Positions 2,093-15,159 of a stretch of DNA of 41,782 nt are shown here, piece by piece; within the stretch, counting starts at the first letter, position 1, and each line of letters begins with the position of its first letter. The position numbers were made by a program, and so were the translations under genes. Where the stretch lies: contig JAILZQ010000007.1 of NCBI GenBank assembly GCA_023512415.1, positions 1-41,782 on the forward strand, written 5' to 3'. Source of the stretch: Geminicoccaceae bacterium (GTDB taxonomy: Bacteria > Pseudomonadota > Alphaproteobacteria > Geminicoccales > Geminicoccaceae). The notes under the pieces are model-generated. The model did no database searches and was not told the origin of the DNA. It saw only the letters and a program-made list of their open reading frames with translations.

Positions 2093-4570
2093 TCAGGCCC
2101 GCTCGACTGTGACCTTGGTCGTATAGTAGTTGCATTGGCCGGTGATGCGGTCGGATTGGTTCACCGTGCACTCGCCGGAATGGCCACCAGGAACGGCCAT
2201 CGACCAGCGCCCTGCCCGCCAGTGTCCCCACTCCATGGGCAGGACGATGGTGTCCGGCCGCGTACCCTCGAACAGCCGGCAGCGGACGCGGATCTCGCCC
2301 ACCGAGGAGCGGATCTTCACCCAGTCCTTGTCCTTGATGCCGCGCTGCCGCGCGGTTTCGGGATGGATCTCGACGAAGGCCTCGCCGCGGCCACCGACGA
2401 CGGGTTGCAGGTGGGCGATCACCATGGGGATGTTGTGACCGCGGCCCTCGGCGTGCAGGGCCTGTTTCGGTGTCACGAGATAGAGGTCGCCACCGCCCGG
2501 GTGCTTCGGCTCCTCCCAGATCGGGAACATGAGCTTCGCCTTGTCGCGCCCGGTCTTCGCGGCGATCCAATCCGCGTTCGCCTCGAGGAGCCCCGAGCGA
2601 ATTTCGAACTTGCCCGATGGCGTTTTGAGGAGCTTCGCCTTCACCTCCTCCGCGGTCATGGGCTTGTTGTAGCCCTTACCGTCCCACTCGAAGAACTCGC
2701 CGCGCACCTGGCGCCAGAGATAGGGCTTCTTGTACCAAACGCCTTTCTCGACCCACTTCTCGAAGCTGTCGACGCCGTTGTCGCCCGGATTCTTCTCGAA
2801 GCCCTTGGCGAGATGCCGGATGACGTTTTCGGCACTTTCGAGCTTCTTGTAATATTCGCCCATCGGACCTTTCATACGTTTGCCGATCTCGATGAGCGTA
2901 TCCCCGAAGTACTTCGTGTCGTACAAGGGTTTGACCGCCGGCACGCGCAGTTGAGTGAGCGGGTAACCCTCGAAGGGGTAGGTGGGCGCGTCCTGCATCC
3001 GCTCCAGATAAGTGTGGTCGGGCAAGATCAGATCCGCGAAATGGCCGGTCTCGGAGGGGAAGGGCGAGGTGTCGATCACGAACACGTCCTGAAGCGCCTG
3101 TTCCCAGACCTGACCGTTCGGTGCGGTCCAAATCGGGTTGGTTTGATAGAACATGACCGTGTCGAGTTTGTAGGGCTTACCGGCCAGATGGTTCGGCCCG
3201 ACCTCCTGCATCATGTTGTTGGCGAGGAGATAGCCGTCCTCGTGGCCCTTGAGATCGATCCGTGGGTACTGCTTCCACGGCCCGTTCTTCGCGTAATCGT
3301 CCATGTAATCGTCGGCTTTGGCCGGGAGCGCGCCGTAGGGTGGCGAGATCTGGTACATCATGCCGCCTTCAGCGAACAGCGAACCCACGAGCGCGTTGAG
3401 CGTGTGGATCGCCATGGCGTTGTAGATGCCGTTCGAGTGCGCGTGCGCGCCGCGCTCCATGATCGCCATGGCCGGGCGGGTCGTGCCGAACTCGCGCGCG
3501 GTGGCGAGAATGTCGCGCTCCCGCAGCGTCGTGACCTTGGCCGCCCAGGCGGGCGTGCGGTCCTTGAGCTCGACGTTCCACCATTCGACGAGGCCTTTGA
3601 CCCACTTCTCTTCGAAGGTCGCGGGATCGACGGCCTGGCCGGCTTTGAAGCGGTTCACACCGTCCGTGAAGTCGCCGACGAACGACCGCTCCCACAGCCC
3701 CTCGGTAAGGATCACGTGGGCGATCGCGAGCGCCAGCGCGCCGTCGGTGCCCGGCTTGATCAGCAATCCGCGGTCAGCGGCGGCGAGGGTGGTGTTGACG
3801 TGCACGTCGACCGCGGTGACGCGGGTCTTGGGAGTCTTCTCGCCGCGGATGTATCCCCAGATTTGCATATTGTTGTTGTACGGTCGGAAGGCGTCCAGGA
3901 AGCCACAACCGAACATCAAAATGTAGTTCGTGTGCCGATAATCGTGGGCATTGTACCCGCCGTTACCGTCCGTCGCCTTCTTGGCGATGATCGAACCGTC
4001 GGAGCACATCGAGGAATGCCCGATCGGGATGTTCGGCGAGCCGTAGAGGCTGCCGAACGTCCCCAGGAGACCGGCGCACGACGCGCCCCACCCGCGGCCG
4101 TAGAGGATGGCGAAGCGGTGACTCTCCCCCTTCTCGCGGAGCGCATTGAGCCGGTCGGCGACCGTCTTGAGGGCTTCGTCCCAGCTGATCGGCACGAACT
4201 TGGGGTCTTCGTTGCGGCCTTTCTTGGGGTTGGTCCGCTTCATCGGACCCTTCCAGCGATCCGGATCGTACAGCACGTAGATCCCGAGGGGGCCTTTCGG
4301 ACAGAGCTTACCGTTCGAGATCGGGTGGTCGGGCGTGCCGTAGATCGCGTGGACCCGGCCGTTGGTCACGTAGACGTCGATGCCGCAGCGGGCCGGGCAT
4401 TGATGGCAAATGTTCTTGACGATCTTCGTGGCGGCGGCCGGTTGCGCCTGCACCGCGCCACCCCCGGCCTCGCCGGGTAGAAGGCTCGGCCCGCCCAGGG
4501 CGAGCGCGGAGCCCGCGCCCGTGGCCTGCAGGAACCGCCGTCGGCTCGCCGCCGGAACCGTTCGCTCCAT
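2093..4570 (-). CDS. Tat-exported molybdopterin oxidoreductase catalytic subunit (ArxA/PsrA-like)
   Basis: An 825-residue DMSO-reductase-family catalytic subunit. The N-terminus carries a Tat signal (SRRRFLQ at residues 9-15, then a hydrophobic stretch). Cysteines 55, 58, 62 and 90 fit the N-terminal [4Fe-4S] site (CX2CX3CX27C). C189 in GHSSMCSDG is the probable molybdenum ligand. Residues 158-162 read GRGWG, which I recall as the signature separating ArxA (anaerobic arsenite oxidase) from ArrA, which has RGRY. The gene order polyferredoxin, A, B, C also resembles arxB'-arxA-arxB-arxC. No arsenic-resistance or arx regulatory gene is present, so a polysulfide-, tetrathionate- or sulfite-type substrate remains possible. 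The ATG at 4570 has a good GGGAGGT site; the reading frame open upstream to 5650 is not coding. Confidence 0.85.
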   Translation of the reverse strand: MERTVPAASRRRFLQATGAGSALALGGPSLLPGEAGGGAVQAQPAAATKIVKNICHQCPARCGIDVYVTNGRVHAIYGTPDHPISNGKLCPKGPLGIYVLYDPDRWKGPMKRTNPKKGRNEDPKFVPISWDEALKTVADRLNALREKGESHRFAILYGRGWGASCAGLLGTFGSLYGSPNIPIGHSSMCSDGSIIAKKATDGNGGYNAHDYRHTNYILMFGCGFLDAFRPYNNNMQIWGYIRGEKTPKTRVTAVDVHVNTTLAAADRGLLIKPGTDGALALAIAHVILTEGLWERSFVGDFTDGVNRFKAGQAVDPATFEEKWVKGLVEWWNVELKDRTPAWAAKVTTLRERDILATAREFGTTRPAMAIMERGAHAHSNGIYNAMAIHTLNALVGSLFAEGGMMYQISPPYGALPAKADDYMDDYAKNGPWKQYPRIDLKGHEDGYLLANNMMQEVGPNHLAGKPYKLDTVMFYQTNPIWTAPNGQVWEQALQDVFVIDTSPFPSETGHFADLILPDHTYLERMQDAPTYPFEGYPLTQLRVPAVKPLYDTKYFGDTLIEIGKRMKGPMGEYYKKLESAENVIRHLAKGFEKNPGDNGVDSFEKWVEKGVWYKKPYLWRQVRGEFFEWDGKGYNKPMTAEEVKAKLLKTPSGKFEIRSGLLEANADWIAAKTGRDKAKLMFPIWEEPKHPGGGDLYLVTPKQALHAEGRGHNIPMVIAHLQPVVGGRGEAFVEIHPETARQRGIKDKDWVKIRSSVGEIRVRCRLFEGTRPDTIVLPMEWGHWRAGRWSMAVPGGHSGECTVNQSDRITGQCNYYTTKVTVERA

Positions 4571-4607
4571 CACCTCGACCTCCCAGCTTACCCCGTCTCG
4601 GAGTTCT

Positions 4608-5768
4608 TCATGCGTCCGCCGGCCGCCGCGGTTCGCCGGAACCGCGCACCCAACGGTGAACGAACCGCAGCAGATCCCGATCCTTCTCACAGGCCGCACA
4701 GCGGCCGCTCGCCGTGGGCGGCCCGTAGGTGGCCCCGCACTCGTTGCACCGGGCGAGCGCGCGCCGCCGCAGCACGCGGCACCCGACCGACCCTTCCTCG
4801 CCCGCCGGCAAGAGCGCGAGCGAGCCCGTGGGGCAGACCTCGATACAGGCTCGGCAGCCCGTACAGACCGTCGGATCGAAGGCGAGGACGCTCGACTCCT
4901 CGCCGAGCTCGAGGTGCAGAGCGCCCGACGGACAGCTCGCGGCGCACAGCCGGCGGTCACAACAGCTGTCGGCGATCGCGAGATCGGGAAACAGAGCGGC
5001 GGGCGGATGTTCGCGGCCGGCGATCCGGGCCAGCGCGGCTGCGCGCTCGCGCAAAGCCGCCGGGTCGATCCCTCGGGGCCGCCCCTCGCCGCGAGCGACG
5101 AGCCGCTGCGGCCCGAGCCGCCCGCGGATCTCGGGAGCGCCTCGGAAGAAGGCGCGCCGGGCGAGCGGGACCCCCGTCGGTCGCGGCGGCGCCGGCGGCG
5201 GCCCGGCGAGCGCGGCGGGCACGGGTTCCCGCGCGACCTCGACGCGGCGCGGCACCCCGAGACGCTCCAGCTCGTCTGCGATGCGGGTGACGGCCGCACC
5301 CCACGGCTCTGGCCCGCCGCCGGCCGGACAGTCGGCGCACCAGCCCCGGTCGACCAGGGCGAGGGCCTCGATTCCGGTGCGCGCGAGCCAGCTCCGCAGA
5401 AGCGAGGGACCCACCCCGCCGAGGCAGGGGACGACCGCGGTACCGCGAGCCCGAAGCTCGACCGGAACCCGGCTGCATTCGAGGCGCACGGTATCGCCCG
5501 GAAGCTGCCCGAACCCTTCGACGACCAGTGCCTCGGTCGGGCAGGCCGCGGCACAGCGGCCGCAGCGCAGGCAGCGATCGAGGGCGATCGCGAGCGATCG
5601 CTCGGCCAGGCTCGGCGCCCCGGTCGGGCATGCGCGGGCGCACGCATCACAAGGCACGCCCGGCCGCGTGACGGTCAGGCAACGATCGGCGCGGACCACC
5701 AACCCTGCGCTCGGCACGTCCGGCGGGCGAGGACGATTTCGGCCGACGGCGACCGGACTCGCGGTCAA
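4608..5768 (-). CDS. Polyferredoxin with four cysteine clusters and a C-terminal zinc-ribbon-like motif
   Basis: First gene of the molybdoenzyme operon, 386 residues from a TTG start at 5768 preceded by GGGAGG nine bases upstream. In-frame alternatives are GTG 5801 and TTG 5840. Ferredoxin-like cysteine groups occur at C30/40/43/47, C66/69/72/76, C269 or C270/275/279 and C302/305/308/312, each ending in a CP pair. A four-cysteine knuckle (C341/344/357/360) near the end looks like a small zinc ribbon. The middle holds further cysteines (C98, C115, C144, C147). There is no signal peptide, so it probably works in the cytoplasm, in electron transfer or enzyme maturation. By position it resembles ArxB'. 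The exact family is not recognised. Confidence 0.75.
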   Translation of the reverse strand: MTASPVAVGRNRPRPPDVPSAGLVVRADRCLTVTRPGVPCDACARACPTGAPSLAERSLAIALDRCLRCGRCAAACPTEALVVEGFGQLPGDTVRLECSRVPVELRARGTAVVPCLGGVGPSLLRSWLARTGIEALALVDRGWCADCPAGGGPEPWGAAVTRIADELERLGVPRRVEVAREPVPAALAGPPPAPPRPTGVPLARRAFFRGAPEIRGRLGPQRLVARGEGRPRGIDPAALRERAAALARIAGREHPPAALFPDLAIADSCCDRRLCAASCPSGALHLELGEESSVLAFDPTVCTGCRACIEVCPTGSLALLPAGEEGSVGCRVLRRRALARCNECGATYGPPTASGRCAACEKDRDLLRFVHRWVRGSGEPRRPADA

Positions 5769-5918
5769 GCCAGGGCGCCTCCCGTTCTGCAATTCGCTCA
5801 CTTCGAAATTACCGGAAGGGTACCCATGCGCAAGCCGCAAAAGGGCCTTGCGGCGAGGCTGCGGCAGGCCGCCGCACGCTCTTGTCGAGCAGCGCTCGGC
5901 AGGAGCGAGGGCGCCGCG

Positions 5919-7823
5919 TCAGCCCGCCCCGGTGCGCGGGTAGCCGAGCTTGGCGAGCGCCTGGGCGATCTCGTCGAGGATCGCCGGATCGTCGATCGTC
6001 GCCGGCATGGTCCAAGGCTGGCCGTCGGCGATCTTCTTCATCGTGCCGCGCAGGATCTTGCCCGAGCGGGTCTTGGGCAGACGCTTGACCACGGTGACGA
6101 GTTTGAACGCGGCGACGGGTCCGATCTCGTCGCGCACCTTTTGGACGAGCTCGCGCTCGATATCGGCGTGCGGTCGGTCCACCCCGGCCTTGAGCACGAC
6201 CAGCCCGAGAGGCAGCTCGCCCTTGAGCTCGTCGGCCACGCCGATCACCGCGCATTCGGCGACGGCGGGGTGCGAGGCCAGCACCTCTTCCATCGCCCCC
6301 GTGGAGAGCCGATGGCCGGCGACGTTGATGACGTCGTCGATTCGGCTCATGATGAAAAGATAACCATCCTCGTCCTTGAACCCTGCGTCACCCGTCAAGT
6401 AATAGCCGGGGTACCGCGAGAGATAGGATTGAACGAAACGCTGGTCCGCGTTCCACAGCGTCGGCAGGCAGGACGGTGGCAAGGGCAGCTTGATGCAGAT
6501 CGCGCCGAGCTTGCCCGGCGGGACCTCGTGACCGTCCTCGTCGAGCACGCGGACGTCGTAGCCGGGCATCGGCAGGGTGGGCGAGCCGGGCTTGACCGGC
6601 AGCTTCTCGATGCCGAGCGGGTTGGCGCAGATCGCCCAGCCGGTCTCGGTCTGCCACCAATGGTCGATCACCGGCACCCCGAGCTGGGCTTCCGCCCACA
6701 ACAGCGTGTCGGGATCGCAGCGTTCCCCGGCGAGGAACAGGGCCCGGAAATGCGAGAGGTCGTAGCGCTTCAAATGCGCGCCCTCCGGGTCCTCCTTGCG
6801 GATGGCGCGGAACGCCGTGGGTGCGGTGAAGAGCACCTTCACGCCCTGCTGCGCGATCACCCGCCAGAAGGCGCCCGGGTCCGGGGTGCCGACGGGCTTG
6901 CCTTCGTAGACGATGGTGGTGTTGCCGTTCAAAAGCGGCCCGTAGCAGATGTAGCTGTGCCCGACGACCCAGCCGACGTCGGACGCCGCCCAGTAGACCT
7001 CACCCGGCTGGACGCCATAGATGTTCCGCATGCTCCACAGCAGCGCCACGGCGTGACCGCCCTGGTCGCGCACGATTCCCTTCGGCTGCCCGGTGGTCCC
7101 CGAGGTGTAGAGAATGTAGAGCGGATCGGTGGCGGCCACCGGCACGCAGTCGACAGCGTGCGCGTCGGCCATCGCTTCCTCCCAGTCGAGGTCGCGGCCG
7201 CGCACGAGTTCGGCGCGCAACTGTGGCCGCTGCAGGACGATACAGTGGCGGGGCTTGTGGTTGCATTGTTCGATCGCCGCATCGAGCAACGGCTTGTAGG
7301 GGACGACCCGGCCCGGCTCGATGCCGCAGGAGGCGGACACCACGAGGACGGGCTTGGCATCCTCGATCCGCTTGGCGAGTTCGTGGCTCGCGAAGCCGCC
7401 GAACACCACCGAGTGGATGGCACCGATCCGCGCGCAAGCGAGCATCGCCACGATCGCCTCCGGCACCATCGGCATGTAGACGACGACCCGATCGCCCTTG
7501 CGCGCGCCGAGGCGAACGAGAGCACCGGCGAAGCGCGCCACGTCCTGCTGCAGCTCGGCGTAGGTGAGGGTCCGAACGGTGCCGGTGACCGGGCTGTCGT
7601 GGATCAGCGCGGCCTGTCCGCCGCGACCCGCGGCGACGTGCCGGTCGACGGCGTTGTAACAAGTGTTGAGCAGGCCGCCTGCGAACCAGCGGTAGAAGGG
7701 CGGGCGGGACGCGTCGAGCACCCGGTCCCAGCGGCGGTCCCAGTGCAGCGCCTCGGCCGCCTCGCCCCAGAAACCCTCGGGATCGCGCAGACTACGTTCC
7801 CAGATCGCCCGGTACACGCTCAT
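5919..7823 (-). CDS. prpE: Propionate--CoA ligase (AMP-forming)
   Basis: A 634-residue acyl-CoA synthetase of the acetyl/propionyl-CoA branch, making propionyl-CoA (or acetyl-CoA) from the acid, ATP and CoA. The P-loop-like motif YTSGTTGQPKG is at 239-249, the WWQTETGW core follows, and the regulatory lysine is K589 in RSGKILRG. The stretches GHSYICYGPLL and LPKTRSGKILRGTMKK are typical of PrpE rather than Acs. The ATG has a GGGAGGACC site upstream. It lies on the same strand as the molybdoenzyme operon, about 150 bases before it, but nothing links the two functionally. No prpBCD genes are in the window. Confidence 0.88.
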   Translation of the reverse strand: MSVYRAIWERSLRDPEGFWGEAAEALHWDRRWDRVLDASRPPFYRWFAGGLLNTCYNAVDRHVAAGRGGQAALIHDSPVTGTVRTLTYAELQQDVARFAGALVRLGARKGDRVVVYMPMVPEAIVAMLACARIGAIHSVVFGGFASHELAKRIEDAKPVLVVSASCGIEPGRVVPYKPLLDAAIEQCNHKPRHCIVLQRPQLRAELVRGRDLDWEEAMADAHAVDCVPVAATDPLYILYTSGTTGQPKGIVRDQGGHAVALLWSMRNIYGVQPGEVYWAASDVGWVVGHSYICYGPLLNGNTTIVYEGKPVGTPDPGAFWRVIAQQGVKVLFTAPTAFRAIRKEDPEGAHLKRYDLSHFRALFLAGERCDPDTLLWAEAQLGVPVIDHWWQTETGWAICANPLGIEKLPVKPGSPTLPMPGYDVRVLDEDGHEVPPGKLGAICIKLPLPPSCLPTLWNADQRFVQSYLSRYPGYYLTGDAGFKDEDGYLFIMSRIDDVINVAGHRLSTGAMEEVLASHPAVAECAVIGVADELKGELPLGLVVLKAGVDRPHADIERELVQKVRDEIGPVAAFKLVTVVKRLPKTRSGKILRGTMKKIADGQPWTMPATIDDPAILDEIAQALAKLGYPRTGAG

Positions 7824-7933
7824 GGCCGGTCCTCCCTCACCGCGGACCGGATCACGATAGGCGCCTTCGAGGGTACCGCAACGCCGCGCGATGACCGGAG
7901 CCGGCGCGACCGCCGGCCCCGGTCCGGGCGGCG

Positions 7934-8479
7934 TCAGTCGCGACCCGGTCCGCGCTCGCGGCCGTGCTCCCGCATCCGCTCGCGCATGCGCTCGCGCTCG
8001 GCGGCACTCATGGGCGTCAGATAGCCGTCGCCGTCACGGTCCATCCGCATGAACATCCGATCGCTCGGCCGTTGGACCTCGACCGCCCCGACCACGCCGT
8101 CACCGTCGGCGTCGAGGAACTGGAACGCCCGGATCCGCATCGGCCGGGTCACCTCGAGCCAGAAGGTCTCGAATTCCTGCGGGTCGAGCCGCCCGTCGCC
8201 GTTCCTGTCGGCCGAGCGCAGCCGCTCGGCCCGGTACGTCTCCATCTCGGCGCGCGAGACCCGTCCGTCGCCGTCGGCGTCGAGCTGGTCGAACATCATC
8301 GCGCCGATGCCGGCGGGTCCCCAGCCCATCGGGCCCATGCCACGGCCGTGCCAAGCGTCGGCCCAGCTCGGACCGGCCCAGCCGACGGCACCGAGGGCCA
8401 GCACGCCGGCGCCCAGGATCAGAAGCGTGCGGACACGCCGCCGACCGGGTTCGGCCTCGATCCGATCGTCCTTCGTCAT
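7934..8479 (-). CDS. Exported or membrane-anchored EF-hand calcium-binding protein
   Basis: A 181-residue protein with one N-terminal hydrophobic segment (about residues 18-40, ending PSWADAW), suggesting a signal peptide or anchor. Four EF-hand loops follow: DADGDGRVSRAE, DRNGDGRLDPQE, DADGDGVVGAVE and DRDGDGYLTP. The Asp/Asn spacing of the loops is intact, so Ca2+ binding is likely. The C-terminus is an arginine/glutamate-rich helix. The ATG at 8479 has a GGAGGAG site. An open frame continues upstream to 9325, but that part lies antisense to the response regulator and is not coding. The gene diverges from a two-component system across about 170 bases, suggesting that system may control it. 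Confidence 0.85.
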   Translation of the reverse strand: MTKDDRIEAEPGRRRVRTLLILGAGVLALGAVGWAGPSWADAWHGRGMGPMGWGPAGIGAMMFDQLDADGDGRVSRAEMETYRAERLRSADRNGDGRLDPQEFETFWLEVTRPMRIRAFQFLDADGDGVVGAVEVQRPSDRMFMRMDRDGDGYLTPMSAAERERMRERMREHGRERGPGRD

Positions 8480-8650
8480 CGCGATGCTCCTCCGCTCGCT
8501 GCGAACGTCCACCTTGCACCATCCTCCTGTCGCGGCGGAATGTCGAGCAGCCACCGGGTCGGTCGCCACATCTGGCGCGCCGCTGCAGCCGCGACGGTCC
8601 GTTACAGTCGAACGGCTGCCGGCGGACCGGCGATTTGGCAGGATCGGGTC

Positions 8651-9370
8651 ATGGAAAACGCGCCGCACCTCCTCGTCGTCGACGATCATCGCGACATCCG
8701 CGAGCCCCTGGCACGCTACCTGGCCAAGCACGGCTTCAGGGTGAGCACCGCCGAGAACGCCGCAGCCGCCCGCAAGATTTTGCAGGGCTCGGCGATCGAT
8801 CTGCTCGTGCTCGACATCATGATGCCCGGCGAAGACGGCCTCGCCCTCTGCCGCCAACTGCGCGCCCAGGGCGACCTGCCGATCGTGCTGCTGACGGCTC
8901 TCGGCGAGGAGACCGACCGGATCGTCGGTCTCGAGATGGGTGCCGACGACTATGTGGCGAAGCCGTTCAACCCGCGTGAGCTGCTCGCCCGGATCAAAGC
9001 GGTGCTGCGGCGGGCCGAGGCCCTGCCTCGACGGCGTGGTCGACCGAACGCCGAGCGGCTCCGCTTCGGCCGTTGGGTCCTCGACGTCGGTCGGCGCGAG
9101 CTCACCCGCGAGGATGGCGTCGCGGTGCCGCTCAGCACGGGCGAGTTCCTGTTGCTCACCGCCTTCCTCGAGCACCCCAAGATGGTGCTCTCGCGCGATC
9201 AGCTGCTCGACCTCACCCGAGGTCGCGAAGCCGCCCCCTTCGACCGGGCGATCGACAACCAGGTCCTCCGGCTGCGCCGCAAGATCGAGCGGGACCCCAA
9301 GAAACCCGAGCTCATCCGCACCCATTGGGGCGGCGGCTACAGCTTCGAGGCCGAGGTGGAACGGGCGTGA
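8651..9370 (+). CDS. OmpR/PhoB-family response regulator
   Basis: 239 residues with an N-terminal receiver domain (acidic pair D11/D12, phosphoacceptor D55 in LVLDIMMPG, T82, K104 in YVAKPFNP) and a C-terminal winged-helix domain (about 140-236) ending with the usual RTHWGGGYSF. All phosphorylation residues are present, so it should be a working DNA-binding regulator. The ATG follows an AGGA site. Its TGA overlaps the GTG of the histidine kinase gene by four bases, so the two are translationally coupled. The divergent EF-hand gene is the most obvious candidate target. Confidence 0.95.
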   Translation: MENAPHLLVVDDHRDIREPLARYLAKHGFRVSTAENAAAARKILQGSAIDLLVLDIMMPGEDGLALCRQLRAQGDLPIVLLTALGEETDRIVGLEMGADDYVAKPFNPRELLARIKAVLRRAEALPRRRGRPNAERLRFGRWVLDVGRRELTREDGVAVPLSTGEFLLLTAFLEHPKMVLSRDQLLDLTRGREAAPFDRAIDNQVLRLRRKIERDPKKPELIRTHWGGGYSFEAEVERA

Positions 9371-10752
9371 TCCGGCTCTGGCCGCGCACGCTCGCCGGAC
9401 GGCTCGTGGCCCTGGCGCTGCTCGCGGTGGCGACGGCCCAGCTCGTGGTCTGGTGGGTCTTCGTCGACGAGCGGCACTGGGCGCTCGCTCGGTTGGGACG
9501 GGAGCGGATCGTCGAGCAGCTCGTCCCGGCCGTGCGCCTGCTGGCGGCCACGCGGCCCGACGAGCACGAAGCGGTGATCCGGGCTCTCGCCACCCCGTCG
9601 CTCGTGCTCGCCATCGATCGCCAACCGATCGTCACCGAAGAGGCGAACGTGCGCCACCCGCTGGCGCGGCGTCTGGCCCGTGAGCTCGGCACCCAGCCGC
9701 GCGGGGTCCGCATCGAGCTCGCCACGCCCGAAGGCCGGTTTGCTGGCGAGGACGAAGAGGACGAAGGCAAGCCCTGGCGCCGTCCGCGCGTGATCGCCGC
9801 CGTCTCGATCGCGCTTCCGGACGGCCGCTGGTTGAACGCGCGGAGCGTCCCGACCGCGCCCGTGCCGGCTCTCGCCCGCCCCTATGTGGCGATGCTCGCG
9901 ATCCTCGCGGCCCTCCTGGTCGCTGCGGTGTCGCTCGGCACCCGGCGGGCGATCCGGCCGCTCGCCGGGCTCGCCGAGGCGGCCGAACGGCTCGGCCGCG
10001 GGGAGCCGGTCGCACCCCTGCCCGAGACCGGACCGGAGGAGGTTCGCCGCGCGGTCGCGGCCTTCAACCGCATGCAAGAGCGGCTTTCCCGGTTCATCGC
10101 CGATCGCACGCGCCTCCTCGCGGCCCTGGGCCACGATCTGCGAACGCCGATCACGAGCCTGCGCTTGCGCGCCGAGCTGCTCGACGACGAGGAAGCGAAG
10201 CAGCGGATCGTCGAGACGCTCGACGAGATGCAGCGGATGGTCGAAAGCACGCTCGCCTTCGCGCGCGAGGAGGCGCAGGCCGAACCGGTGCGTGAAACCG
10301 ACCTCGCCGCATTGGTCGAAGGCACGGTCGAGGACTTGAGCGAGCTGGGCCTCGACGTCCGGCTCGTGGCGAGCGAACCGGTGGTGGCTCGGATCCGGAG
10401 CGCCGCGATTCGACGCGCACTGAGGAACCTGATCGAGAACGCGGTCCGCTACGGAAAGCGGGCGCGGGTCGGCCTGGTACGGGAGGCGGAGGAGGCCGTG
10501 GTGCGGGTCGACGACGACGGACCCGGAATCCCGCCGGACAAGCTCGAGGAGGTCTTCGAGCCGTTCGTGCGCCTCGACCCGTCGCGCTCGACCGAGACCG
10601 GGGGCGTCGGGCTCGGTCTGGCGATCGCCCGGGGCATCGCTCGGTCGCACGGTGGCGAGGTGAGCCTTCTCAACCGCCCCGAAGGCGGGCTGCGCGCCTG
10701 CTTGCGACTCCCGCTTGCCACGCCGAACCGCCCGGGTTCCGCGCGAACCTGA
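9367..10752 (+). CDS. Membrane sensor histidine kinase
   Basis: 461 residues from a GTG overlapping the regulator's stop. There are two membrane helices (about 12-32 and 172-192) enclosing a periplasmic sensor of about 140 residues, then HAMP, HisKA (H256 in ALGHDLRTP) and HATPase_c (NLIENAVRYG, DDDGPGIP, GVGLGLAIARG). All catalytic motifs are intact. The sensor domain contains an acidic cluster EDEEDE at 128-133. Acidic patches in PhoQ-type sensors bind divalent cations, and the neighbouring EF-hand gene fits a cation signal, but that ligand is my inference. A terminator follows directly. Confidence 0.94.
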   Translation: MIRLWPRTLAGRLVALALLAVATAQLVVWWVFVDERHWALARLGRERIVEQLVPAVRLLAATRPDEHEAVIRALATPSLVLAIDRQPIVTEEANVRHPLARRLARELGTQPRGVRIELATPEGRFAGEDEEDEGKPWRRPRVIAAVSIALPDGRWLNARSVPTAPVPALARPYVAMLAILAALLVAAVSLGTRRAIRPLAGLAEAAERLGRGEPVAPLPETGPEEVRRAVAAFNRMQERLSRFIADRTRLLAALGHDLRTPITSLRLRAELLDDEEAKQRIVETLDEMQRMVESTLAFAREEAQAEPVRETDLAALVEGTVEDLSELGLDVRLVASEPVVARIRSAAIRRALRNLIENAVRYGKRARVGLVREAEEAVVRVDDDGPGIPPDKLEEVFEPFVRLDPSRSTETGGVGLGLAIARGIARSHGGEVSLLNRPEGGLRACLRLPLATPNRPGSART

Positions 10753-10832: not shown

Positions 10833-13475
10833 ATGGAACCCTCGATCTTCGCCTTCATTCGCAAGTACAGCTGGAAGCAGCAGCTTCTGATCTTGGCGCT
10901 CACCTTCCTGTCGTTTCCGCCGCTTTATTATTCACTGGAGCTTCCCAAGATCATCATCAATCGGGCACTCGGGGATCCGGACGGCCCGTGGATGCTGTTC
11001 GGTTACGATCTCGAACGCACGACCTATCTGTTCGGGCTTTGCGGCCTGTTCTTGTTACTCGTCCTGATCGGCGGCGGGCTCAAATATGTTCTGAACGTCT
11101 ATGCCGGCATCGTCGCCGAGCGGATGCTCCGCCGACTGCGATACCAACTTTACGAACACGTGCTGCGCTTCCCGCTACCGCATTTCCGGAAGGTGAGCCA
11201 AGGCGAGCTCGTGCAAATGATCAACGCCGAGACCGAAGCGCTCGGCGGCTTCGTCGGCGACGCGTTCGCCGTGCCGGCGTTCCAGGGTGGGACACTGCTC
11301 ACGATCCTCACCTTCATGTTCATGCAGGACCCGATTCTGGGTGTCGCGGCGATCGCTCTCTACCCCTTGCAGATCTGGCTGATCCCGCGCTTGCAACGCC
11401 AAGTGAACGAGCTCGCCAAGAGGAGGGTCCGCCAGGTCCGCCGCAACGCCGAGCGGATCAGCGAGACCTGCGCCACGATCCGGGAGATCCACGCCCACGG
11501 GACGGCCCGCTACGAGCTCGCCCGCTTCAGCGAGCAGCTGGGAGCCGTGTTCTGGATCCGCTTCGCGATTTACAAGAAGAAGTTCTTGATCAAATTTCTC
11601 AACAATTTCCTCGCCCAGCTCGGTCCGTTTTTTTTCTTTTCGATCGGCGGCTGGCTCGTGATCCACGGCGACATCACCCTCGGCGCGCTGGTGGCCGTGG
11701 TCGGCGCCCACAAGGACCTTTCCTCGCCTTGGAAGGAGCTGCTGACCTATTACCAAACGCTTTACGACGTCCGGATCAAATACGAGCAAACCGTGGCCCA
11801 ATTCGCCCCGCCCGGTCTCGAGCCGGCGGAGCTCTTGACCGGGGAGCCGAGCCGCGAACCGTCCTTCACCGGCACGAGCTTGCGGCTGACCGGCGTGACG
11901 TTGCTCGACGACGGCGGCGAGCCGGTTCTCGACGGCGTGGAGCTCCAACTCGACCTGCCCTGTCGGGTCGCCCTGATCGGCCCTGCCGGGGGCGGTCGTG
12001 AGGAGTTGACCCTGGTCCTCGCCGGACTCCTCGTGCCCGATTCGGGGCGTGTGCTGATCGACGGCCTCGTCCTCCACGAGCTCCCGGAACCGCTGCTCGG
12101 TCGCAAGATCGCCTACATCGGGAGTCAACCCGCGCTGATCGCCGGAACGATCGAGGACAACCTCCTCTACGGCCTGAAGCAGCGGCCGCGTCGGCTGGTC
12201 GAGCCGACGGGCGCCGACCGAGCGCGGCGCGCCCGAGACCGCCACGAGGCCCTGGCCTCGGGCAACTCGGTCGATCCCCTCGATGCCGATTGGGTCGACT
12301 GGGAAGCGGCCGGGGTCCGCGACCCGGCCGAGCGGCTTCCGGCGATGCTCGCGGCCTTGGCCGTCGCCAGGCTCAGCGACGACGTCTACACGTTCGGGCT
12401 GCGAGGGCCGCTGCCGGCCGACCGACCCGAGCTCGCCGGGCGGGTGCTCGAGGCGCGCCGGTCGATGCGCGCCCGATTGGCCGGGGACGAACGATTGGCG
12501 CGGCTGGTCGAGCCGTTCGATCCGGAACGCTACAACAGCAACGCGACGCTCGCCGAGAACCTCCTCTTCGGCATGCCCGTGGGAAACGTGTTCGACCTCG
12601 AGCACCTCGCGAGCCATCCTTACGTGCGCTCGATCCTCGAAGAGACGGACCTCGTCGACGAGCTGCAGCGGGTCGGCTATCGGTTGGCACAGACCATGGT
12701 CGAGCTGTTCGCCGATCTGCCAGCGGATCACGAATATTACCGACAATTCAGCTTCATCGCCCCGGAGGACCTACCTGAGTTCAAGGCGATCCTGGGAAAA
12801 GCCACCATCGAGCGGTTGAATCGCCTGTCCGCCGCCGAGCGCGACCGCCTGTTGGACCTTCCCTTCAAACTCGTGGTCGCCCGGCACCGCTTGGGGCTGA
12901 TCGACGAGGCGCTCCAGCAGCGCCTGCTCGAAGCGCGCAAGCGCTTCCGGGCAAGGCTCCCGGCTGGCCTCTTGGGCGCGGTGGCGTTCTTCGATCCCGA
13001 CCACGTGAACCCGGCGGCTTCGGTTCAGGAGAACATCCTGTTCGGCAAGATCGCGCACGGCCAAGCGCATGCCGCCACGCGGGTCGCCGTGTTGCTCGCC
13101 GAGGTGATCGATGCGCACGGTCTGCGCGACGCCGTGATCGAGGTGGGCCTCCGGACCGAGTGCGGCATCGGCGGTGCCCGGCTGAGCCTCGCCCAGCGGC
13201 AAAAGCTCGCGATCGCCCGTGAGGTGCTGCGGCGGCCCGAGCTCGTCCTGCTGCACGAGCCCACCTTGGCCCTCGACGCAGCGGACCAGCCGCTCGTGCG
13301 TGACGCGCTGCTCGAGGCATTTCGCGACCGCTCGATCGTCTGGTCGCTGCAGGACCAGGAATGGGCCAGTCGCTTCGAGCGGGTTATCGTGTTGGAGCGC
13401 GGCCGGGTGGTCGCCCAGGGCAGCTTCGCCCAGATCTCTGGGCCGCAGCTCGAACCCGTCGATGCGCCCGGCTGA
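10833..13475 (+). CDS. ABC-exporter-like protein with degraded ATPase motifs and a large insertion in its nucleotide-binding domain
   Basis: 880 residues. Residues 1-320 form a six-helix type IV ABC exporter membrane domain; 345-870 form a nucleotide-binding-like domain. Its motifs are altered: Walker A reads GPAGGGREE (383-391; no Lys-Ser/Thr), the signature reads LSLAQ (784-788), Walker B reads LVLLHE (Asp replaced by His, Glu kept) and the switch-histidine region reads WSLQDQ. The Q-loop (Q432) looks normal. About 290 extra residues separate the Q-loop segment from the signature. The segment after the Q-loop, GTIEDNLLYG (438-447), recurs as ATLAENLLFG (571-580) and ASVQENILFG (729-738). 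It probably dimerises but may not hydrolyse ATP normally. It heads an operon with cyclic-nucleotide genes. The ATG at 10833 begins the membrane domain; its ribosome site is weak. Confidence 0.85.
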   Translation: MEPSIFAFIRKYSWKQQLLILALTFLSFPPLYYSLELPKIIINRALGDPDGPWMLFGYDLERTTYLFGLCGLFLLLVLIGGGLKYVLNVYAGIVAERMLRRLRYQLYEHVLRFPLPHFRKVSQGELVQMINAETEALGGFVGDAFAVPAFQGGTLLTILTFMFMQDPILGVAAIALYPLQIWLIPRLQRQVNELAKRRVRQVRRNAERISETCATIREIHAHGTARYELARFSEQLGAVFWIRFAIYKKKFLIKFLNNFLAQLGPFFFFSIGGWLVIHGDITLGALVAVVGAHKDLSSPWKELLTYYQTLYDVRIKYEQTVAQFAPPGLEPAELLTGEPSREPSFTGTSLRLTGVTLLDDGGEPVLDGVELQLDLPCRVALIGPAGGGREELTLVLAGLLVPDSGRVLIDGLVLHELPEPLLGRKIAYIGSQPALIAGTIEDNLLYGLKQRPRRLVEPTGADRARRARDRHEALASGNSVDPLDADWVDWEAAGVRDPAERLPAMLAALAVARLSDDVYTFGLRGPLPADRPELAGRVLEARRSMRARLAGDERLARLVEPFDPERYNSNATLAENLLFGMPVGNVFDLEHLASHPYVRSILEETDLVDELQRVGYRLAQTMVELFADLPADHEYYRQFSFIAPEDLPEFKAILGKATIERLNRLSAAERDRLLDLPFKLVVARHRLGLIDEALQQRLLEARKRFRARLPAGLLGAVAFFDPDHVNPAASVQENILFGKIAHGQAHAATRVAVLLAEVIDAHGLRDAVIEVGLRTECGIGGARLSLAQRQKLAIAREVLRRPELVLLHEPTLALDAADQPLVRDALLEAFRDRSIVWSLQDQEWASRFERVIVLERGRVVAQGSFAQISGPQLEPVDAPG

Positions 13476-13492: not shown

Positions 13493-13966
13493 ATGAGCCT
13501 GCAACGCGACGTCGACGCGCTCCGGGCGATCCCGTTGTTCGCCAAGGTCGAACCGTCGCGACTCAAGCTCCTCGCCTTCACCTCCGAGCACCTCGATTTC
13601 GAGCCGGGGGAGATACTCTGCCGCCAAGGCGAGCCCGGCGACGCCGCCTTCATCCTCCTCGAGGGCACCGCGGACGTGTTCGTGGACACCCCGCGGGGCC
13701 GAGTGAAGGTCGCGACGCTCGGAAAGAACGACATCGTCGGCGAAATCGCGATCCTGTGCGACGTGCCGCGGACCGCGACGGTCGTGGCCGCCACCCGGCT
13801 TCACACACTCAAAATCGGCAAGGACGGGTTCTTCAACCTCGTCACCCAGTTCCCGGAGGTGGGTGTGGAGATCATGCACGAGCTCGCGGCTCGGTTGCAC
13901 CACACGACCCAGAGGTTGACCAACGTCTCGCTCCGCTTGGCCGAGCTGGAGGCGAGCAAAGCGTGA
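13493..13966 (+). CDS. Stand-alone cyclic-nucleotide-binding domain protein
   Basis: A 157-residue protein made of one CAP_ED cyclic-nucleotide-binding domain (about 15-130) plus a C-terminal helix. The phosphate-binding cassette reads VGEIAILCDVPRTATV, with the Gly-Glu and Arg-Thr/Ala positions that contact cAMP or cGMP. There is no helix-turn-helix after the domain, so it is not a Crp-type transcription factor. It more likely acts as a regulatory subunit that binds a partner, perhaps the ABC-like protein encoded 17 bases upstream. It has a strong GGAGGAGG site. Its TGA overlaps the GTG of the cyclase gene, so sensor and cyclase are coupled. Confidence 0.9.
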   Translation: MSLQRDVDALRAIPLFAKVEPSRLKLLAFTSEHLDFEPGEILCRQGEPGDAAFILLEGTADVFVDTPRGRVKVATLGKNDIVGEIAILCDVPRTATVVAATRLHTLKIGKDGFFNLVTQFPEVGVEIMHELAARLHHTTQRLTNVSLRLAELEASKA

Positions 13967-15159
13967 GCCGTGCCGCGGGACATTGGCCCGAGCGCCGCCT
14001 GATCGCGCTCGACTGGCTGATCCTCGAGAGCGGTCGCGAGCGCTTCGTCGAGCGCCTGTTCGCAGGGCTTTGCGTCCGGTTGCTCGAGGACGGCCTGCCG
14101 ATCGCCCGCTCCACCCTCCACGTCCGCACGCTCCATCCGCAGTTCTTCGGCGCCCGTCTGCTCTGGCGACCGGGCATGGAGGAGGCCGAGATCACCTTCC
14201 TCGACCACGACTCGATCACCGATCGGCGCTTTCTCGACAGCCCGGTCCGCGCGCTCTACGAAGGCGCCGAGGCGATCCATCAGCGTCTCGACCTGGCGAC
14301 CCCGGTGCCCCGCGAATATCCCGTCTACGCCGAGCTGCGGGCCGAGGGTATGACCGATTACGTGGCCATGCCGATGGCCTTCACCGACGGCACGCGCCAC
14401 GCCTGCACTTGGGCGACCGACCGACCCGGTGGGTTCCGAGCCGGCGACCTCGCCGCACTCGGGGACCTGCTGCCGGCTCTGGCCATGGCAACCGAGATCC
14501 GGCTCAGCCGGCGGATCGCCCGCAATCTTCTCGACGCGTATGTCGGACGGCATGCCGGGGCCCGCATCCTCGCGGGCGAGATCCGCCGCGGCAGTGGGGC
14601 CACCGTTCGGGCGGCCATTTGGCAGTGCGACCTTCGCGACTTCACCACGATCGTCGAATGCCTGCCGCGCGACGAGGTGATCGCCTGCCTCAACGGCTTC
14701 TTCGAGGTGATGGGTGCGCCGGTCGAGGCGCAAGGTGGCGAGATCTTGAAGTTCATCGGCGACGGGATGCTCGCGATCTTCCCGCTCGAAGGCGAGGCAG
14801 CGTGCCATCGGGCGCTGCGCGCGGCTGTCGAAGCGCGGCAGGGTCTCGCCCGGCTCAACGAAAAGCGGCAGGGGCGCGTGGGGCCGCTGCGCTTCGCTCT
14901 GGCGCTGCACGTGGGCGACGTGATGTACGGGAACATCGGCACGCCCAGCCGGCTCGACTTCACGGTGATCGGCCCGGCGGTCAACGTGGCCGCTCGCCTG
15001 CAGCAGCTCGCCAAGGATCTCGACCGGGACGTGCTGCTCTCCGGGCCGTTCGCCGCGATGTGCACCTGCGACGGCGAGTTCCTCGAGCCGCTCGGCCGCT
15101 TTCCGCTGCGCGGCGTGCCCGAGCCCCTCGAGGTTCTGGCGTTGGCCCACCGGTCTTGA
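13963..15159 (+). CDS. Class III adenylate cyclase with an N-terminal sensor-like region
   Basis: 398 residues. The C-terminal catalytic domain (about 215-395) has both metal aspartates (D223 in CDLRDFT, D267 in FIGDGML), the purine-selecting lysine K263 and threonine T334 expected for adenine, and the transition-state pair N341/R345 in NVAARL. It is therefore predicted to be an active ATP-to-cAMP cyclase. The N-terminal 200 residues have no membrane helix and look like a soluble input domain; I do not recognise the ligand. The GTG start overlaps the upstream stop (GTGA), and the gene's own stop overlaps the FkbM gene (TTGA). Confidence 0.92.
   Translation: MSRAAGHWPERRLIALDWLILESGRERFVERLFAGLCVRLLEDGLPIARSTLHVRTLHPQFFGARLLWRPGMEEAEITFLDHDSITDRRFLDSPVRALYEGAEAIHQRLDLATPVPREYPVYAELRAEGMTDYVAMPMAFTDGTRHACTWATDRPGGFRAGDLAALGDLLPALAMATEIRLSRRIARNLLDAYVGRHAGARILAGEIRRGSGATVRAAIWQCDLRDFTTIVECLPRDEVIACLNGFFEVMGAPVEAQGGEILKFIGDGMLAIFPLEGEAACHRALRAAVEARQGLARLNEKRQGRVGPLRFALALHVGDVMYGNIGTPSRLDFTVIGPAVNVAARLQQLAKDLDRDVLLSGPFAAMCTCDGEFLEPLGRFPLRGVPEPLEVLALAHRS

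Follow-up and report, generated by a model that had tools for sequence, protein, structure and literature searches.

A degenerate ABC exporter-like protein in Geminicoccaceae

We analyzed a 41,782-nucleotide stretch of DNA from a Geminicoccaceae bacterium (contig JAILZQ010000007.1 of GenBank assembly GCA_023512415.1), referred to here as the window, in which a gene at positions 10833 to 13475 encodes a protein resembling an ATP-binding cassette (ABC) exporter. The reading frame of 880 codons plus stop is open throughout and, like the other features of the window given with coordinates below, lies on the forward strand. The product, which we term a pseudo-ABC exporter, has a transmembrane domain (TMD; residues 1 to 325, positions 10833 to 11807) and a nucleotide-binding domain (NBD). 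Pfam matches ABC_membrane at residues 69 to 289 (E 5.9e-22), and its ABC_tran match is split over two stretches; a PF00664 membrane domain and an ABC NBD in one chain give the protein the make-up of a type IV (MsbA-like) exporter. In an NCBIfam scan of the protein, none among the best 25 of 162 models reached its cut-off.

The sequence-only reading that drew attention to the gene had reported altered Walker A, Walker B, signature, and switch motifs, with a sound membrane domain, Q-loop, and catalytic Glu, and the translation and the Pfam match bear this out. Walker A reads GPAGGGREE (residues 383 to 391, positions 11979 to 12005), with R389 replacing the Lys and E390 the following Ser/Thr. The signature, LSLAQ (residues 784 to 788), has lost its glycines and forms part of the stretch LSLAQRQK (784 to 791, positions 13182 to 13205). 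Walker B, LVLLHE (804 to 809, positions 13242 to 13259), has H808 in place of the Asp and retains the catalytic E809, and the switch region WSLQDQ (837 to 842, positions 13341 to 13358) has Q840 where the His is expected. With the Q-loop Gln (Q432), E809 makes up the two canonical residues present of the seven scored, and by its residues the protein is short of a functional ABC ATPase (Lys, Ser/Thr, Asp, Glu, LSGGQ, and His).

Loss of catalytic motifs could reflect a local sequence error or a decaying gene. A sequencing error was rejected because homologues 88 to 89% identical share the same Walker A letters, and decay into a pseudogene is refuted by 130 distinct homologues that are similarly altered, by ratios of nonsynonymous to synonymous substitution (dN/dS) well below 1 everywhere, and by the absence of stop codons; we give this explanation almost no weight.

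Catalytic erosion across the family

The family was assembled from 172 open reading frame matches in 176 loci (163 full-length, six TMD-only, and three partial); the 163 full-length matches reduce to 130 distinct sequences, whose alignment is the basis of the family counts. Loci added later (L208 to L223, including the divergent L208 to L211) lie outside these counts, and the 149 positive genomes described below are incompletely represented in them. Among the 130 full-length homologues, the Walker A Lys is retained in 68 and the following Ser/Thr in nine, the Q-loop Gln in 14, the second signature Gly in 10, the Walker B Asp in 20, the catalytic Glu in 68, and the switch His in 38. When these sequences were checked for canonical motifs, none of the 130 was fully canonical or had even six of the seven residues; two reach five, eight have four, 23 three, 44 two, 28 one, and 25 none. 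As a control, one canonical exporter family drawn from the same relatives was scored, and all positions are intact in 29/29 of its sequences. Because no homologue is fully canonical and the controls are all intact, the catalytic erosion is taken to be old and family-wide, with uneven further decay. In the window's own family, an approximate grouping of 24 sequences made by locus number, the Lys is present in seven and the Ser/Thr in two. The QRQK following the signature is strongly conserved in the family alignment, and W837 of the switch region is conserved in 105 of the 130 relatives.

A repeated segment within the NBD

An insert overlooked by the sequence-only reading splits the NBD between the Q-loop and the signature. 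It covers residues 451 to 714 in the window protein (positions 12183 to 12974), and is present in 130/130 full-length members at lengths of 252 to 319 amino acids (median 265). Comparison of family-segment profiles delimits three related segments: copy A, residues 420 to 560 (positions 12090 to 12512), includes Q432 and TIEDNLLYG; copy B is residues 556 to 718 (positions 12498 to 12986; FDPERYNSNATLAENLLFG); and copy C, residues 712 to 820 (positions 12966 to 13292; FDPDHVNPAASVQENILFG), carries the signature and Walker B. Copies B and C match with a probability of 97.9 (p 4.2e-13), A and B with 86.4 (p 4.6e-6), and A and C with 62.7 (p 7.2e-5), three control comparisons against membrane-domain segments giving at most 0.22. 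Every copy is a Q-loop-like stretch that closes in a variant of ATxxENLLFG and is followed by helices. The insert thus consists of two extra copies of the Q-loop/helical segment, and, given these internal repeats, the NBD has three such segments and not one. We note that in four loci (L175, L176, L220, and L221) the matches are interrupted near query residues 455 to 490, at the start of the insert, which suggests further insertion or divergence.

Predicted fold and selective constraint

An AlphaFold2 model of the window protein, made with 18 input sequences, has a mean predicted local distance difference test (pLDDT) score of 84.5. Most ten-residue blocks of the NBD and insert score at least 85; the membrane domain is less certain, with residues 143 to 165 and 295 to 300 below 50. 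When the model was compared with solved structures (Foldseek was also used), the best match was Sav1866 (2hyd_A; Z 27.0, with an alignment spanning 420 of the 880 residues at 3.4 Å, within residues 1 to 873), and the protein is predicted to have an overall ABC exporter fold.

The NBD is usually the most conserved part of ABC exporters, according to the accessible part of PMC7756269. Here the usual order is inverted, with the TMD above the NBD: mean pairwise identities among 29 pseudo-ABC sequences are 0.612 for the TMD, 0.439 for the NBD core, and 0.471 for the insert, compared with 0.661 (TMD) and 0.714 (NBD) among 29 sequences of the canonical control from the same relatives. Between the window gene and four relatives, dN/dS is 0.04 to 0.09 for the TMD, 0.13 to 0.32 for the NBD core, and 0.13 to 0.25 for the insert, values from four pairs only and with dS up to 1.5, such that saturation is a concern. 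By both identity and dN/dS the TMD is the best conserved part of the family, and many of its charged and polar residues are invariant; the NBD is nonetheless under purifying selection and does not drift freely.

An NBD that is still under selection and has an intact fold in the model might bind ATP without hydrolyzing it and, together with the cyclic-nucleotide-binding (CNB) domain protein described below, report nucleotide state to the membrane domain. The Walker A Lys of 68/130 members and the Q-loop Gln and Glu of the window protein would suit such an ATP sensor, but both Walker A residues are gone from the window protein and are scarce in its own family (Lys in 7 and Ser/Thr in 2 of 24), and the switch His is found in just 38/130; we consider ATP sensing unlikely. 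Of the nucleotide-sensing role suggested earlier for the protein, sensing itself is best assigned to the CNB partner, whereas ATP sensing by the NBD is made less likely by the missing Lys and Ser/Thr, although 68/130 relatives keep the Lys.

Linkage to a CNB domain

The gene for the CNB domain protein (VGEIAILCDVPRTATVVA; positions 13493 to 13966) begins 17 bases after the stop codon of the pseudo-ABC gene, matches Pfam cNMP_binding (E 2.3e-21), and has an intact phosphate-binding cassette. This adjacency is widespread: a CNB gene lies downstream on the same strand, ending no more than 1.5 kb from the end of the ABC gene, in 105 of the 130 family members, and the CNB domain is fused to the C-terminus of the exporter in 12 of the 130, 10 detected by phmmer and two by Pfam (Azospirillum ramasamyi and Sulfitobacter). 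In an NCBIfam scan of the fused protein from Azospirillum, none among the best 25 of 26 models reached its cut-off. The phosphate-binding Arg is present in 115/115 CNB sequences and the Glu in 111/115, these sequences having been picked by similarity to the CNB protein of the window (E<=1e-9) anywhere in the loci. In one locus, from an Osedax symbiont (L051), the exporter gene is present as tandem copies (3935 to 6517 and 7530 to 10124), and no CNB was found for either.

A gene for an adenylate/guanylate cyclase-domain protein (positions 13963 to 15159; Pfam Guanylate_cyc, E 1.9e-7) follows, its GTG start overlapping the CNB stop codon. In an alignment of 50 rows, the first metal Asp is present in 48 and the Lys of the LKFIGDG motif in 43, with the C-terminal motif a gap in about half, and the assignment as a cyclase is by Pfam alone. 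The cyclase is a steady neighbor in the window's own family; elsewhere, cyclases occur in rhizobial clusters. Genes 3' of the cyclase encode an FkbM methyltransferase, a phosphatidylserine decarboxylase, and two CDP-alcohol phosphatidyltransferases, several of which recur in the window's family. We considered a hairpin followed by TTTT, 3' of the histidine kinase stop codon, as part of an operon leader; it is indistinct from shuffles (z -0.04) and the scan shows no terminator or promoter there, and the transcription unit is putative. Of the operon proposed by the sequence-only reading, with a CNB sensor and a cyclase, the CNB gene proves the steadier partner; a cyclase directly beside the exporter gene is for the most part a feature of the window's own family.

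The pseudo-ABC protein had also been suggested to be half of a heterodimer. A canonical half-transporter encoded elsewhere would then provide the single active ATP site, in which its Walker A would be combined with the LSxAQ-like signature of the pseudo-ABC protein, and the strong conservation of QRQK behind the signature, together with other ABC exporters encoded in the same genome, would be in keeping with this. Heterodimeric exporters with one degenerate site are well known, and in the examples described the degenerate site still binds ATP (both from PMC7756269), but in this family the Walker A Ser/Thr is kept in only 9/130 and the Lys in 68/130. An unlinked partner is conceivable; a linked one was not seen, and there is no second ABC gene in the 41.8-kb window at E<=1e-3 among the 150 of 173 candidates scored. 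No ABC exporter gene recurs nearby in the other loci, among the named seed families sought there, whereas CNB genes, glycosyltransferases, and sometimes an oligopeptide-type importer do. A partner would also leave the repeated segment and the TMD-only relatives unexplained, and we regard a heterodimer as improbable.

Association with glycosyltransferases and distribution of relatives

Outside the window's family, the gene often points away from a series of genes for glycosyltransferases, a histidine phosphatase, and a protein annotated as a polysaccharide deacetylase, the last of which gave no match in a Pfam scan. Of the 60 loci L117 to L176, all outside the window's family, 42 have at least one of the glycosyltransferase genes no farther than about 8 kb away. 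In the genome of the window itself, two of the transferases (60% and 54% identity) are together on a different contig (C21). Scored with cut-offs of E<=1e-30 for the ABC protein and E<=1e-60 for the first transferase, 144 of 387 genomes have both, five the ABC protein only, none the transferase only, and 238 neither; presence agrees in 382/387 genomes (phi 0.97, a value that ignores relatedness). The co-occurrence holds where the genes are unlinked, including in the window's own genome. We note that the transferase cluster is repeatedly accompanied by an oligopeptide-type ABC importer in Rhizobium, Azospirillum, and Sinorhizobium (L084, 143 to 6113; L085, 15358 to 21499; L090, 3382 to 9344).

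Genome searches recovered relatives in 33 of 60 genomes (E<=1e-50), 149 of 387 sampled alphaproteobacterial genomes (E<=1e-30), and 40 of 397 genomes from across the phylum (E<=1e-30), with the window's own genome included in each. Two of the 40 phylum positives lie outside the class, a TMD-only protein (L213) and a protein of 583 amino acids (L212, genome G516). The latter was considered as an apparent missing link with canonical motifs, but by eye it is an ordinary MsbA-like exporter, so E<=1e-30 can admit canonical exporters (1/40 phylum positives). Among 72,556 plasmid records, 333 matched (E<=1e-40), 261 of these with a query coverage of 80% or more; by genus, Rhizobium contributes 144 and Sinorhizobium 80. 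Named members include those of Thalassobaculum, Marinobacterium, the Osedax symbiont, R. etli p42e, and S. meliloti pSymB; rhizobial members are annotated merely as 'ABC transporter ATP-binding protein'.

TMD-only and divergent relatives

Some relatives of about 400 to 500 amino acids have the TMD and no NBD (L087, 7773 to 9266; L088, 7665 to 8903; L091, 7773 to 9077; L216, 6531 to 7730), and further examples are in L052, L053, L214, and L217. Six TMD-only proteins that were scanned match Pfam ABC_membrane and no other domain. Copper-resistance gene sets surround TMD-only relatives in four loci by annotation or Pfam and in four more by eye; L054 and L213 have no recognized copper gene in view. 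A tree was built from six TMD-only proteins, four outgroup sequences, and a subset of 55 of the 130 full-length sequences. In it, the TMD-only proteins form one clade with 100/100 support, which is either nested in or sister to the full-length members, the outgroup branch lengths being 6.6 to 10. A model of a TMD-only protein had a mean pLDDT of 66.6 and was not used. Shorter TMD-only proteins (314 to 348 amino acids) in L215, L218, and L219 have no copper context and a weaker family match. In members of a separate lineage (f64), the membrane domain is barely recognizable (L208, 7473 to 10025; L209, 8698 to 11298; L210, 8453 to 11296; L211, 6635 to 9589).

The existence of TMD-only relatives, together with the many invariant charged and polar membrane residues, could also point to a secondary transporter of the SbmA type, whose ABC-derived membrane domain would draw its energy from the proton gradient, with a purely regulatory part for the NBD and CNB. 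The window protein has no Pfam match at E<=10 to the SbmA-type (SLiPT) profile, which we take to be PF05992, on the assumption that the library includes it. A proton-energized ABC-type membrane domain does exist in SbmA, as described in the accessible part of PMC13316013, but proton coupling in the pseudo-ABC family would be an analogy, and we doubt that these proteins work in this way.

A model for pseudo-ABC exporters

We propose, with a probability of roughly one half, that the protein is a homodimeric pseudo-ABC exporter that is set by cyclic-nucleotide binding rather than by ATP hydrolysis and acts in a surface-glycan pathway. Two copies would pair as a homodimer that has given up ATP hydrolysis, and the NBD and its stacked helical segments would provide a scaffold through which the CNB domain is coupled with the helices in the membrane. 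In the window's family, the neighboring cyclase may supply the cyclic nucleotide bound by the CNB domain, and ligand binding would open, close, or bias the membrane domain. A product of the glycan pathway might, in turn, pass through the membrane domain or be flipped by it, either downhill or driven by another gradient, or the domain might be a membrane switch for the pathway. The proposal draws on the loss of catalytic residues against intact controls, the inverted conservation and dN/dS values, the repeats in the insert, the adjacent or fused CNB domain and its invariant Arg, the co-occurrence with the transferase, the existence of TMD-only relatives, and the exporter fold of the model. The suggestion in the sequence-only reading of a pseudo-ATPase with a regulatory use of the scaffold gains support from the family-wide catalytic decay, the purifying selection, and the conserved and sometimes fused CNB domain. 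More tentatively, and at somewhat less than even odds, both ATP sites would be dead and the segment triplicated as a scaffold, the CNB domain would gate a glycan channel or flippase across the Alphaproteobacteria, and the NBD-less proteins in copper-resistance gene sets would be a sister or daughter branch.

Several observations weigh against the proposal of a CNB-set homodimer. The Walker A Lys and the catalytic Glu are each retained in 68/130 members, and one member has Lys, Ser/Thr, Asp, Glu, and His all together; it is because of these residues that residual ATP binding or hydrolysis is possible in some members. In the f64 lineage (L208 to L211, outside the 130), the NBD and insert are conserved, whereas divergence has affected the membrane domain. 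The ligand is only presumed to be a cyclic nucleotide: in HetC, guanosine tetraphosphate (ppGpp) and not cyclic AMP is bound by the CNB domain (PMC10986499). A neighboring CNB protein could also control something else. No glycosyltransferase is nearby in 18 of the 60 loci L117 to L176, and the genome-wide co-occurrence takes no account of relatedness. Lastly, the searches detected no CNB gene or domain for 12 of the 130 members, and one more locus stops at a contig edge. Seven of these 13 come from Marinobacterium or other Oceanospirillaceae loci (L046 to L051, both L051 copies counted), six falling among the 12 and one being the contig-edge case; these loci are gammaproteobacterial.

Comparison with known systems

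ATP hydrolysis is the defining activity of ABC exporters, and if the proposal is correct, the family would be a natural experiment on an ABC membrane domain uncoupled from ATP. It would also represent an unusual running mode for a transporter, with the ATP engine lost and the remainder tied to a cyclic-nucleotide sensor and sugar-coat genes, and it points to a signaling-controlled surface-glycan system in plant-associated bacteria such as S. meliloti and R. etli. No description of the family was found in the literature searched, which was examined for the family and its features and also for TMD-only ABC proteins with copper resistance, SbmA, and the COG of the transferase, most subscription journals being outside its coverage. 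From what the accessible parts of the sources describe, none of the systems compared (MsbA type, degenerate-site proteins, HetC, and SbmA) unites all of the pseudo-ABC features.

Like the MsbA/Sav1866-type (type IV) exporters, the protein has a PF00664 membrane domain and a Sav1866-like model fold, but it differs from them in its eroded catalytic residues, the insert of about 265 amino acids with two extra segments, the CNB partner, and the inverted conservation. The degenerate-site ABC proteins (CFTR, TAP, and TM287/288) have likewise lost consensus ATPase residues and retained the scaffold; in those described in PMC7756269, each dimer retains a single canonical site and the second site still binds ATP, whereas the pseudo-ABC gene seemingly gives two dead sites. 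In HetC, a peptidase-type ABC exporter of Nostoc, a CNB domain is also joined to an ABC exporter. HetC requires its catalytic Glu and combines a C39 peptidase with a CNB domain at its N-terminus that binds ppGpp, as PMC10986499 reports; in the pseudo-ABC family the CNB domain either has its own gene or sits at the C-terminus and ATPase residues are lost, and the window protein has no C39 peptidase among its Pfam matches and not the residues of a working ATPase. SbmA (SLiPT) shares with our proposal an ABC-type membrane domain that functions without an ATPase (PMC13316013, as far as accessible); unlike SbmA, the full-length pseudo-ABC members retain an NBD and match PF00664.

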